A stretch of 64,000 nucleotides of DNA from an alpha proteobacterium AAP38 (GTDB lineage Bacteria; Pseudomonadota; Alphaproteobacteria; Azospirillales; Azospirillaceae): contig LJHR01000021.1 of assembly GCA_001296005.1 (NCBI GenBank), forward strand, positions 1 through 64,000, given 5' to 3'. Below the pieces are notes generated by a model. It saw only the letters and a program-made list of their open reading frames with translations. It had not been told where the DNA came from and did not search any database. The first letter of the stretch is position 1, and every line of letters starts with the position of its first letter. This document shows, piece after piece, positions 11,312-48,860 of the stretch. A program made the translations under genes and the position numbers.

Positions 11312-11335
11312 CCGGCAGTGAAGTGCCGGATAGTA

Positions 11336-11486
11336 CCAAACTGCCGAGGGTCTGACCCTTGGCAGTTTGGAGGCCGCCGACCGGCGGCCCGCGCACCCAT
11401 GTGCGCGTAAGCCAAGCCGCCGGATGGCGGCGCCCGGCGCTTGAGGGAACAGGTAACGACCCAGAGCCATGATCCATGGCTCTTGG
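11336..11486 (+). repeat. Structured interspersed repeat, copy A
   Basis: This copy contains, in order: a long hairpin CCAAACTGCC/GGCAGTTTGG (11336-11370); an 8-bp stem with loop AC (11372-11389); CGCGCAC/GTGCGCG (11390-11407); the linker TAAGCCAAG; a stem with loop GGAT (11416-11431); the tail GGCGCTTGAGGGAAC; and a hairpin AGAGCCATG/CATGGCTCT (11463-11483). Element order, the AC and GGAT loops and the tail match copies at 20397-20540 (inverted) and 47726-47875, but the stems differ in sequence with pairing kept. It lies between the convergent M20 peptidase and galE genes. Confidence 0.8.
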
Positions 11487-11494
11487 CATAAGTG

Positions 11495-18658: not shown

Positions 18659-20026
18659 ATGACCCAGGACTGTACCAACCAGAAGGCGATCAGGGGGCCG
18701 GGCCGCTGGCATCCGCGCCAACTGCGCGCCTCGCTGTCGGCCCGGCCCTTCCTGCGCAATGTCTCCATCCTGCTGACGGGGGCGGCTGGGGGGCAGATGA
18801 TTGCCCTGCTGCTGTCGCCGCTGCTAACGCGGCTATACACGCCGCAGCAGTTCGGGACCTTGAGCGTCTATTCCGCTGCCCTGACCATGATCGTGGTCGT
18901 GGCGTGCTTGCGCTATGAATTCGCCCTGCTGCTGGTGCGGCGGCGGGCGGATGCCGTCAATCTGACAGCGGTCTGCCTGTGTGCGCTGCTGCTGACCACG
19001 GCGGCGCTGGGCGTTGCGGTCTTCGCGGTGCCGGCGGCGACGCTGCGGGCGCTGTGGCCGCTACCCCTGGATGAGGGGCCGCTGGCGCTTTACCAGGGGC
19101 TGCTGGTCCTGGGCTATTTCTGCCTCGGCTTCTACTACATCGCCTTGCAACTGGCCACGCGGGCCGGCGACTTCCCCGCCATCGCCAAGACAAGGCTGGC
19201 GCAGGGGCTGGTGGGACCGGTCAGCCAGATCGGGCTGGCCCTGGCGGGGCTGGGGGCGCCGGGTCTGCTGGCCGGCTTCGTCCTGGGGCAATCGGCGGGA
19301 AGCTTCGGCCTGTTCGGCTGTGTCCTGGCCCGGATGCGGCGTGTCTGGCGGCTGCTATCCTGGCGGCGCATGCGGGTGCTGGCCCGGCGCTATATCCGTT
19401 TCCCGCTGATCAGCAGCTGGGCCGCCCTGATCGACGCGGCGGGCAGCAGCCAGTTGCTGTATCTCTTGGCCGGCATCGCCTTTTCCCCCGCCGTGGCCGG
19501 CTTTATCTTCCTGGTGGAACGGGTGGTCTCGCGCCCGCTGGCCATCGTCGGGACCTCCATATTGCAGGTCTATATGGGGGAGGCGGGAAAGATTGCGGCC
19601 AGCGACCCCACCCGCCTGAAACGCCGCTTCGCACAGGTCGTGTCGCGGCAATTCCTGCTGGCGCTCCTTTGGATTCTGGCCGCCAACCTGGCCGCGTCCG
19701 TCGCCTTTGCCCGCATTTTCGGGCCGGAATGGCAGCAGGCGGTGACCTATCTGCACGCGCTCAGCCTCGGCTATCTGGCGCAGGCGGTTGTCCAGCCCGT
19801 GTTCCACACGCTTCAGATCCTGGGCCGGCAGGGGCTGGCCGCCGGCTGGCAGGTGGGGCGGCTGTGCCTTACGGTCTGCGTGTTCCTGGCCGGTATGGCC
19901 CAGGGATGGGCCGCCCCTTGGGTGATCGCGGGATACAGCGCGGCACAGGCCGTCTGCTGCCTGCTGCTGCTGGCCCTCATGGTGCGGGCCATCGATCAAC
20001 AACGGGACGAAGGGGTGAAGGGATGA
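18659..20026 (+). CDS. Polysaccharide flippase (Wzx / MATE-type)
   Basis: A 455-residue protein with about 12 hydrophobic helices in the polysaccharide-biosynthesis (RfbX/Wzx) pattern. Near the N-terminus, FLRNVSILLTGAAGGQMIAL and LTRLYTPQQFGTLSVYSA carry the typical Wzx start. Its job would be to flip lipid-linked repeat units across the inner membrane. The ATG at 18659 is the likeliest start although the Shine-Dalgarno is distant; a start at 18599 would add 20 non-conserved residues. The stop overlaps the next gene by 4 bases. Confidence 0.85.
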   Translation: MTQDCTNQKAIRGPGRWHPRQLRASLSARPFLRNVSILLTGAAGGQMIALLLSPLLTRLYTPQQFGTLSVYSAALTMIVVVACLRYEFALLLVRRRADAVNLTAVCLCALLLTTAALGVAVFAVPAATLRALWPLPLDEGPLALYQGLLVLGYFCLGFYYIALQLATRAGDFPAIAKTRLAQGLVGPVSQIGLALAGLGAPGLLAGFVLGQSAGSFGLFGCVLARMRRVWRLLSWRRMRVLARRYIRFPLISSWAALIDAAGSSQLLYLLAGIAFSPAVAGFIFLVERVVSRPLAIVGTSILQVYMGEAGKIAASDPTRLKRRFAQVVSRQFLLALLWILAANLAASVAFARIFGPEWQQAVTYLHALSLGYLAQAVVQPVFHTLQILGRQGLAAGWQVGRLCLTVCVFLAGMAQGWAAPWVIAGYSAAQAVCCLLLLALMVRAIDQQRDEGVKG

Positions 20027-20397
20027 AACACACCGCCGCCATCATTGCGCTGCTGCTGGGCGCGACGCCCATGGCCGCCGCAGCCCCCTTCTGTGTCAAG
20101 GTCACGGGCGTGCCGGCCCAATGCCTCTATGTCGATCCCGCCGCCTGTCAGCGGGAGGCGGACAGGGCCGGCGGGCGCTGCGTCACCAATGAGCGGGAGT
20201 TTGAAAGGCCCATCGCCGCCCTGCCTTACTGTCTGGCGCGGGCCGGCAATGTCATGTCCTGCGTCTACCCCGCCTATGCCGATTGCGAGACGGATGCCCG
20301 GCGCCTGGGCGGGACCTGCGTCGCCGCCAGGCTGCCGCCCCGGCCCGGTCCGGTAAAGGAACCGGGCACCGATCCCTTCGCCATCACCCGTCCTTAG
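20023..20397 (+). CDS. Secreted Cys-rich protein with two DUF3551-like repeats
   Basis: A 124-residue protein with a clear signal peptide (about 1-20, ending AAA). The mature part has two copies of one unit: PFCVKVTGVPAQCLYVDPAA... ending GGRCV, and LPYCLARAGNVMSCVYPAYA... ending GGTCV. The spacing C-x9/10-C-x-Y-x4/5-C-x8/9-GG-x-C is the same and recalls DUF3551 proteins of alphaproteobacteria, which usually carry one unit. Eight cysteines suggest disulfides in the periplasm. The start overlaps the flippase stop (ATGA), so it is coupled to polysaccharide export. Function unknown. Confidence 0.78.
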   Translation: MKHTAAIIALLLGATPMAAAAPFCVKVTGVPAQCLYVDPAACQREADRAGGRCVTNEREFERPIAALPYCLARAGNVMSCVYPAYADCETDARRLGGTCVAARLPPRPGPVKEPGTDPFAITRP

Positions 20398-20540
20398 AGC
20401 GCGTTTCCGTTGACTGGAAATACGCTCCAGCTTTTGGTTCCTCAAGCGCCGGCGCCGCATCCGCGGCTTGGCTTCACGCCGCACGTGCGGCGCGGCGGCA
20501 GTCGCCGCCGGAGCTGTTTCCGGTATACCGAAAACAGCTC
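20397..20540 (-). repeat. Structured interspersed repeat, copy B (inverted)
   Basis: Read on the minus strand, this copy has: hairpin GAGCTGTTTTCGG/CCGGAAACAGCTC (20511-20540); an 8-bp stem with loop AC; the palindrome CGCCGCACGTGCGGCG; linker TGAAGCCAAG; GCCGC-GGAT-GCGGC; tail GCCGGCGCTTGAGGAAC; and an end hairpin (20397-20427). It closely matches copy C at 47726-47875, and most core differences keep base pairing. It fills the gap between the convergent stops at 20397 and 20545. Confidence 0.85.
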
Positions 20541-47693: not shown

Positions 47694-47725
47694 CGCTGGG
47701 GGAACCGCCGGCTGGCACCCTGTTA

Positions 47726-47875
47726 GAGCTGTTTTCGGCTTACCGGAAACAGCTCCGGCGGCGACCGCCGCCGCGCGGCACGTGCCGCGTGAAGCCAAGC
47801 TGCGGATGCAGCGCCGGCGCTTGAGGCAACTGAAAGTTTAGAGCATGTTTCCGGGCACGGGAAACATGCTCTAAA
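47726..47875 (+). repeat. Structured interspersed repeat, copy C
   Basis: The best-preserved copy. It has: hairpin GAGCTGTTTTCGG/CCGGAAACAGCTC (47726-47755); CGGCGGCG-AC-CGCCGCCG (47756-47773); palindrome CGCGGCACGTGCCGCG (47774-47789); linker TGAAGCCAA; GCTGC-GGAT-GCAGC (47799-47812); tail GCCGGCGCTTGAGGCAAC; and a 16-bp stem hairpin (47837-47852 with 47860-47875). The last arm contains the stop codon of the gene on the other strand (47871-47873). It lies between the convergent trhO and dehydrogenase genes. Confidence 0.87.
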
Positions 47876-48860
47876 ACATCATTTCCAGCACGCGGTCGCG
47901 CGGCTGGTGACCGTCGGCGAAGGTCTTGATATTGACGATCACCTTCTCGCCCATGTCGATACGCCCCTCCAGCGTGGCGGACGCCATGTGCGGCAGCAGC
48001 ACGACATTGTCGAGCTTCAGCAGCTTGGGATCGATATTGGGTTCGTCCTCATAGACGTCCAGGCCGGCGCCCCCGATCTCGCGCCGTTGCAGCATGCGGG
48101 CCAGCGTCGCCTCATCCACCACCTGACCACGGCTGATATTGACCAGGATGGCCGTGGATTTCAGCAGGGCCAGACGCCGCGCGTTCAGCAGGTGGTATGT
48201 GGCCGGCGTGCGCGGGCAGGTGATGGCGACGATATCCATGCGCGCCAGCATCTGATCCAGGCTTTCCCAATAGGCCGCATCCAGTTCCGCCTCCACCTCC
48301 GGGTGGACGGGTTTGCGGTTATGGTAATGGATGGACAGGCCGAAGGCCTTGGCGCGCCGCGCCAGCGCCTGACCGATGCGGCCCATGCCGATGATGCCAA
48401 GCCGCTTGCCGGCCAGCCGCGACCCCAGCATGACGGTGGGGGCCCAGCCCGTCCATTGCCCGGACCGCACCAGCCGCTCCCCCTCCGACAGGCGCCGGGC
48501 CGTGGCCAGGATCAGGGCCATGGTCATGTCCGCCGTATCCTCGGTCAGCACGCCCGGCGTGTTGGTGACCAAGATGCCCTTGTTGCGGGCGACGCGCAGG
48601 TCGATATGGTCCACGCCATTGCCGAAATTGGCGATCATCTTCAATTGCGGCCCGGCCTGGTTCAGCAGGGCCTCGTCGATCGTGTCGGTGACGGTGGGCA
48701 CCAGGATGTCGGCGGTCTTCACCGCCTCTTCCAACTCGGCCCGCGTCATCGGATGGTCATCCAGATTCAGGCGCGTGTGGAACAGTTCCATCATCCGTGT
48801 TTCGATGACGTCCGGCAGCTTGCGCGTGACGATGACCAGGGGCTTCCGGCGTTCGGCCAT
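47871..48860 (-). CDS. 2-hydroxyacid dehydrogenase (glyoxylate/hydroxypyruvate reductase or D-glycerate dehydrogenase)
   Basis: A 329-residue D-isomer-specific dehydrogenase. The NAD(P) site is LGIIGMGRIGQALARRAKAF near residues 150-169. The catalytic arginine is in NFGNGVDHIDLRVARN, the glutamate in DVYEDEPNIDP, and the histidine in LLPHMASAT. The preference (glyoxylate, hydroxypyruvate or another 2-keto acid) cannot be told. The start at 48860 has GGGAGG upstream; longer in-frame ATGs reach back over the divergent SH3 gene and are not credible. Confidence 0.9.
   Translation of the reverse strand: MAERRKPLVIVTRKLPDVIETRMMELFHTRLNLDDHPMTRAELEEAVKTADILVPTVTDTIDEALLNQAGPQLKMIANFGNGVDHIDLRVARNKGILVTNTPGVLTEDTADMTMALILATARRLSEGERLVRSGQWTGWAPTVMLGSRLAGKRLGIIGMGRIGQALARRAKAFGLSIHYHNRKPVHPEVEAELDAAYWESLDQMLARMDIVAITCPRTPATYHLLNARRLALLKSTAILVNISRGQVVDEATLARMLQRREIGGAGLDVYEDEPNIDPKLLKLDNVVLLPHMASATLEGRIDMGEKVIVNIKTFADGHQPRDRVLEMMF

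Follow-up and report, generated by a model that had tools for sequence, protein, structure and literature searches.

The locus at 47726–47875 raises the question of what kind of element is built as a row of hairpins that change in sequence from copy to copy and still pair, and of how such an element spreads. The window, i.e., the whole stretch of DNA analyzed here (64,000 nt, positions 1–64000 of contig C14 of the home genome G000), had been reported in a preliminary description to hold three copies, at 11336–11486, 20397–20540 (inverted), and 47726–47875. These places, the order of the parts, and the orientation were all confirmed. Regarding their nature, a new REP/BIME-like family, an RNA 3'-end element, and a transposase-mobilised cassette had been proposed.

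Anatomy of the three window copies

From 5' to 3' along the element strand, the copies are composed of the hairpins H1, H2, and H3, a linker, the hairpin H4, a tail, a spacer, and the hairpin H5. H1 is an outer hairpin, whose sequence varies between copies, and H5 forms the outer hairpin after tail and spacer. H2 had been described as an 8-bp stem with an AC loop; the hairpin was found as described, but by our count, its stem has 7 bp and its loop reads GACY. H3, a hairpin with a 4-nt loop, is followed by the linker (T)(G)AAGCCAAG, which leads to H4 with its GGAT loop, and the subsequent tail reads CGCCGGCGCTTGAGG, or CGCCCGGCGCTTGAGG in copy 1. The stem pairs quoted for the three copies proved to be correct, i.e., the stems differ between copies and pairing is still possible. 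The unpaired skeleton AAGCCAAG-GGA-CCGGCGNNTGAGG occurs three times in the window, as compared to zero times in 100 dinucleotide-preserving shuffles.

Copy 3 is a GAGC-type element of 146 bp (47726–47871, plus strand) with the ends GAGC...GCTC, flanked by TA at 47724–47725 and 47872–47873; the boundary of this member of the GAGC subfamily was set by its repeated ends and not by an empty site. Its parts all lie on the plus strand. The 5' outer hairpin H1 (13 bp, 4-nt loop; 47726–47755) was placed by sequence and fold, whereas sequence and covariation were used for H2 (7-bp stem, GACY loop; 47756–47773), H3 (6-bp stem, 4-nt loop; 47774–47789), and H4 (4-bp stem, GGAT loop; 47800–47811). The conserved linker TGAAGCCAAG, which is unpaired in the model (47790–47799), and the conserved tail (47812–47826) were recognized by sequence. 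The 3' outer hairpin H5 (47837–47875), placed by sequence, fold, and gene calls (L006), contains the right terminus, and the CTA at 47871–47873 is the TAG stop of a called minus-strand gene (47871–48860, 2-hydroxyacid dehydrogenase-like).

Copy 2, likewise GAGC-type, comprises 144 bp on the minus strand (20397–20540; sequence and gene calls, L011), and the TAG at 20395–20397, within its terminal TTAGAGC, is the stop of a called plus-strand gene (20023–20397). Copy 1 comprises 155 bp on the plus strand (11334–11488; sequence and model match) and has TACC-type ends (TACCAA...TTGGCA) and a diverged core with GGCCGCCG/CGGCGGCC. Its flanking triplets, TAG and TAA, differ, so that copy 1 has no intact target duplication. 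No tRNA was found in the window. All three copies are more stable than shuffled sequences (folding z = −7.35, −7.07, and −7.85). Successive hairpins appear in the predicted minimum-energy RNA fold of copy 3 only; in the folds of copies 1 and 2, the arms of H2 or H3 pair with those of H4. Covariation, and not energy in every copy, is therefore the basis for the series of separate hairpins.

Pairing and distribution of the core

From 30 copies of the home genome, a covariance model (R2) was built for the core. In this genome (5.78 Mb), R2 revealed 102 matches at a threshold of E < 1e-6, and 124 if E ≤ 10 is allowed, 150 of 15,899 candidates having been scored; the number of three copies thus holds for the window but not for the genome. 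A search of 59 genomes, including the home genome, returned matches in 33. All 11 genomes of the genus (g1) were among these, and the ten others carry 14 to at least 83 matches each (83 scored). Several further genera of the family also have matches, and others have none. In a fuller scan of nine genomes, 150 candidates were scored per genome. The search of genome and relatives that the preliminary description had suggested therefore yielded many further copies in both. In the relative G045, several copies are located at contig ends (C7, C31, C50, and C55; matches at 37–109 of the contig); the repeat is probably undercounted because it interrupts assemblies.

A broader model (R3) matched at least 35 of 385 genomes of the class and at least 14 of 398 genomes of the phylum, the home genome being included in both; all 14 belong to the same class, of which the 398 contain an unstated number of members, and the counts are lower bounds, as 12 candidates were scored per genome. 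Furthermore, an anchor pattern that fixes only positions outside the stems identified at least 115 stretches in named genomes, 80 of which were listed. The genera among the matches listed include Niveispirillum, Nitrospirillum, Azospirillum, Oleisolibacter, Roseomonas and relatives, as well as Magnetospirillum, Telmatospirillum, Erythrobacter, Qipengyuania, Sphingomonas, Jiella, Methylobacterium, and others, which together cover several alphaproteobacterial orders.

Across this range, pairing is kept while the stems change. Already among 29 distinct copies of the home genome, double changes occur in four pairs. When 99 distinct sequences, drawn from many genera, are aligned, 98.1% of 1621 cells are paired (75.7% if shuffled), all 17 of 17 pairs show double changes (shuffled mean 9.7), and 275 cells are double-changed (70.7 if shuffled); sliding the partner by one base lowers pairing to 26–30%. 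As this alignment had been fitted to the model and relatedness is not considered in the shuffles, a separate, fitting-free test was made on anchor-selected matches. Here, the arms of H4 pair over at least 4 bp in 67 of 81 distinct matches, as compared to a mean of 12.9 and a maximum of 22 with exchanged arms, counting four-base loops and also a GGA triloop. An earlier count, restricted to four-base loops, gave a fully paired left arm in 48 of 82 and a mean run of 3.48 (1.68 if exchanged); both counts used the 80 listed loci of at least 115 anchor-pattern stretches. Upstream of the linker, and thus outside the pattern, H3 was found in 57 of the 81 matches, H3 together with H2 in 44, and all of H3, H2, and H1 in 40 (shuffled means of 21, 9, and 5). 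The H2 loop reads GANN in 25 of these 44, and under a stricter rule, the H3 loop reads NNRT in 43 of 50.

The inner core, i.e., H2-H3-AAGCCAAG-H4-tail and usually H1 before it, thus keeps its pairing by compensatory changes across genera. The pairing excess, the double changes in every pair, and the H4 test support the covariation and the selection on the fold that had been proposed, compensatory changes being in excess over shuffles. Linker, loops, and tail also recur across wholly different stems, linker and tail having served as search anchors in that comparison.

Around this core, the ends vary. In addition to TACC and GAGC ends, copies in G558 have CAGGGC-ATCGCT-type hairpins on both sides and resemble the Methylobacterium match of the anchor pattern, and copies in G276, which are like the Erythrobacter-group matches, show by eye neither terminal repeats nor a right-hand hairpin. 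Tandem core units were found in G012, G015, and Falsiroseomonas (L161), and one array of multiplied core units ends in just one right-hand hairpin. A record of a viral collection (IMGVR_UViG_2708742415_000004; 47,865 bp; L419, L455, and L457) contains 21 exact core matches in three non-overlapping pieces; many are arranged in tandem with a period of 108–116, and neighbors may differ in the whole H3 and be identical in the rest. At another locus of the home genome (L025:1760–1860, near 1853), the tail CCGGCGCTTGAGG follows immediately on H1, apparently as the result of an internal deletion between CCGGCG repeats.

Mobility, target sites, and gene ends

Near-identical units occur at unrelated places in G002, G004, and G010, and what these genomes share is the unit including its ends. 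In G002, ten units were measured; they have a length of 146, 148, or 155 bp and are bounded by TACC and GGTA or AGTA, and the triplets flanking such TACC-ended units are TNA. Scoring at both ends was possible for 35 of 180 distinct copies with flanking sequence, and 31 of the 35 have TNA on both sides; the remaining four, with a mis-assigned left end (TGG), lie outside the 31. The middle base is identical on both sides in 28 of the 31 copies, as compared to a mean of 8.8 and a maximum of 18 after exchange; the T of the right-hand TNA was built into the search, and the middle base was free. For six of the ten G002 units, the sequence with the unit and one TNA removed was compared to the sister genome G010, and five of these sites match uninterrupted with 87–95% identity. 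Three empty junctions read base by base contain a single TAA, TTA, or TGA. At the sixth site, only the left flank matches G010, the right flank containing another repeat that is found at dozens of places. The repeat in this flank (L109; G002:C27 about 135,900–136,040; query about 799–881) is palindromic, CCTTCCCCGCGAAAGCGGGGAACC..., and abundant, as it matches dozens of times in g1 genomes. Duplications and empty sites together demonstrate that in the relatives, the TACC-ended unit transposes: it inserts into TNA, duplicates three bases, and has filled and empty alleles.

For GAGC-ended copies, including copies 2 and 3, the flanking TA is inseparable from the termini, and they have probably transposed as well, by analogy to the TACC-ended units. 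The distant relative CP131057.1 (about 70% identity) has a gene junction homologous to that of copy 2, which lacks the element; for copy 3, no empty site was present among the plasmid matches listed (8 of 62 records).

The 3-bp target duplication suggests a DDE transposase, and the TNA target is presumably comparable to that of the IS1031 group of the IS5 family. Around 30 fetched of 37 DDE_Tnp_1 (IS5-like) matches from six genomes, some of them cut by contig ends, no TNA-TACC/GGTA-TNA pair was detected; a generic inverted-repeat scan of these loci returned other termini, e.g., TAGAGTCCGTTGGG in L304. A search of two genomes with the terminus pattern (one terminus type, ≤ 1 mismatch) yielded no pair spaced like an IS that would form a complete element. 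Of the proposals made beforehand, the transposase-mobilised cassette comes closest: its mobilisation is seen in the duplications and empty sites of the relatives, although no transposase was found in these searches.

A RAYT-type gene, which the preliminary description had suggested looking for, does exist, as the only Y1 transposase match of the home genome is a RAYT (NCBIfam REP_Tyr_transpos, 181 bits), located between sigma-factor-like and flagellar-motor-like genes as read from neighboring frames. It is, however, flanked by a different repeat, GTAGGTCGCAT... palindromes unrelated to the hairpin element. The RAYT locus itself (L036:1400–2010; G000:C62 about 117,160–117,770), with GTAG-headed palindromes (GTAGGTCGCATAAGCG...) on both sides, constitutes a separate REP family. 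Nine of the 11 genomes of the genus have no RAYT match, although the core copies in each of them number from 37 up to at least 83, whereas G017, G018, G026, and G033 have 3–5 RAYT matches and 0 core matches; both were found in G015 (4 RAYT and at least 150 core matches) and G016 (1 RAYT and 26 core matches). Neither co-occurrence, assessed in 59 genomes, nor flanking, assessed in the home genome, thus links RAYT to the element, and RAYT is disfavored as the mover.

To describe the gene context, genes were called by codon usage, with a score limit of 12 for the window baseline and 15 for the copies. In total, 106 copies were placed (32 from the home genome, 40 from G002, G004, and G010, and 34 from others), revealing 36 copies between convergent genes, 28 in tandem sense, 31 in tandem antisense, and 4 in divergent position, as well as 2 within a called gene and 5 with one side unknown. 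The gene pairs of the window served as a baseline (9 convergent, 10 divergent, and 34 tandem), against which convergent positions are favored over divergent ones (Fisher p = 0.0007); all three window copies lie between convergent genes. The core starts at a median of 38 nt past a stop as compared to 130 nt from a start, the values for the other side being 41 and 123 nt. Left-hand stops lie at 26–45 nt in 44 of 67 cases and right-hand stops at 39–42 nt in 21 of 69. These distances correspond to how long the two ends are, which places many tips at stop codons.

The TNA site is an in-frame stop of the flanking gene in 12 of 23 usable cases, a modest excess over the 7.5 expected from intergenic TNA (p = 0.013) among sites that are not all independent, as L098 and L132 look like one orthologous site. 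This count requires a matching TNA by construction and is therefore no test of the duplication, and with 12 of 23 cases against 7.5 expected, targeting of stop codons beyond tolerance is not established. The tip of GAGC ends spells TAG. In 39 copies (28 from the home genome and 11 from G004), 9 left and 6 right ends have a stop within 60 nt, and the adjoining gene stops at the tip itself in four cases on either side; in the window, TAG accounts for 8 of 52 stops, and two TAG-tip stops are present (20395–20397 and 47871–47873). In the tandem pairs, both strands are used about equally (28 copies sense, 31 antisense, p = 0.79), which argues against a function in one strand of mRNA and for a role in DNA or in the element's own propagation.

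Competing explanations and known repeat families

Taken together, we regard the hairpin repeat as a non-autonomous, MITE-like transposable element of about 146–155 bp with a conserved hairpin core, with a probability of roughly 0.7. It is short and devoid of a transposase gene (146–155 bp in G002; 144, 146, and 155 bp in the window), and has inverted termini, TACC...GGTA/AGTA or GAGC...GCTC, which are short, partly degenerate, and not visible in some copies; a target duplication is found in TACC-ended copies of the relatives only, not in the three window copies. The DDE-type transposase of some IS would cut and join such an element in trans. Insertion into TNA, or for GAGC ends into TA, where the G of the element completes TAG, would leave a stop codon intact and thus be harmless, and harmless insertion at stop codons combined with purging elsewhere could produce the gene-end pattern. 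The core may be kept because its folded single strand is needed for propagation or bound by a host factor, and the folded form might be single-stranded or cruciform DNA, or RNA. More tentatively, and as a possibility that we consider less likely than not, the copies may belong to a class-wide mobile family, whose conserved identity is the fold and not the sequence: the core would be carried by different transposon ends across Alphaproteobacteria, be recognized as folded ssDNA or RNA by an enzyme or a host factor, and nest in stop codons, where insertion is harmless.

Alternatively, the ends might be exchangeable and descent might follow the folded core, which would then be a parasite in its own right or a trans-acting functional RNA, hitchhiking in different MITEs. 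The same core between TACC, GAGC, and G558-type ends, its occurrence without visible ends in G276, and the multiplication of core units, with only one right-hand hairpin behind them in one array, are in line with such independence; the sharing of unit and ends together in G002, G004, and G010 is not, and we consider this explanation rather unlikely. A structured cis RNA in mRNA 3' ends, acting in stability or termination, spread by any means, and kept for the host, would account for the strong covariation, the conserved loops and linker, and the position at gene 3' ends. Insertion tolerance can account for this position as well, and the element strand of copies 1–3 shows no T-run after the hairpins. 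Rfam 15 gave 0 matches at gathering score in the window, and the even distribution of tandem copies over both strands makes the sense-strand RNA 3'-end element of the preliminary description unlikely; in its broader form, a cis RNA still appears improbable. The best permissive Rfam match was P5 (E = 0.0043, 27.6 bits as compared to 60 bits needed); known structured RNAs (P5, BcKCsr2, RsmW, and RtT) were rejected, as they remained below gathering scores and the families differed between four permissive scans of other stretches.

Palindromes are prone to template-switching correction, and the covariation might be a by-product of such correction or of recombination between copies, without selection on the fold. 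The difference of the whole H3 between otherwise identical units of one array fits this assumption, but linker AAGCCAAG, loops, and tail recur where the stems are wholly different, a comparison in which linker and tail were search anchors and the H2 and H3 loops were not; we therefore consider it quite improbable. Least credible is a REP/BIME-type repeat moved by a RAYT (Y1, HUH) transposase on single-stranded hairpins, in spite of the hairpin array, the gene-end position, one genuine RAYT gene, and the presence of both in G015 and G016. A constant GTAG head is missing, as TAGAGC is preceded by T, C, or G; RAYT presence and core copy number do not track, and the RAYT of the home genome is surrounded by other GTAG-headed palindromes. 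Furthermore, Y1 transposition leaves no target duplication, in contrast to what is seen here, and we hold the REP/BIME proposal to be very improbable.

The outer hairpins of copies 2 and 3, TTAGAGC...GCTCTAA, look like the alphaproteobacterial palindromes of the RIME or Bru-RS kind, GAGC(ATG)...; the core is not known to be part of these. With the GTAG-tagged REP/BIME/REPIN repeats and their RAYT (PMC3733652), the element shares palindromic structure, a high copy number, and gene 3' ends; it differs by the missing constant GTAG tag, the target duplications, and the absence of RAYT from most copy-rich relatives. The CGTC-tagged palindromes of Alphaproteobacteria, described as single stem-loops of 8–9 bp that start with CGTC and complementary A-T pairs (PMC3733652), occur in the same bacterial class, form stem-loops, and have no dedicated transposase known. 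By this description, they are set apart from the element, which comprises several hairpins in about 150 bp, and copies 1–3 have neither the CGTC tag nor the 8–9 bp stem with A-T first positions. In Niveispirillum-like genomes, the element often forms part of gene 3' ends; no published description of it was found in open-licence literature, including passages of PMC3733652, PMC10969869, and PMC12306157.

Most similar to the element are the bacterial MITEs of DDE-type IS. Like these, it is short and intergenic, has inverted termini, occurs in many copies, duplicates its target, and encodes no transposase. In contrast to these, its interior is widely conserved as a covarying hairpin array and its ends depend on the lineage, and a parent IS did not emerge from our searches. 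The element could serve as a case for how elements spread in dense bacterial genomes via gene ends and stop codons, and as a clean case for asking if small elements owe their mobility to a folded strand of DNA or RNA. MITEs usually conserve their ends while the interior drifts. The element described here reverses this habit, as a covarying fold is retained in its interior across genera and, judged by the motif, across orders, whereas its ends differ.
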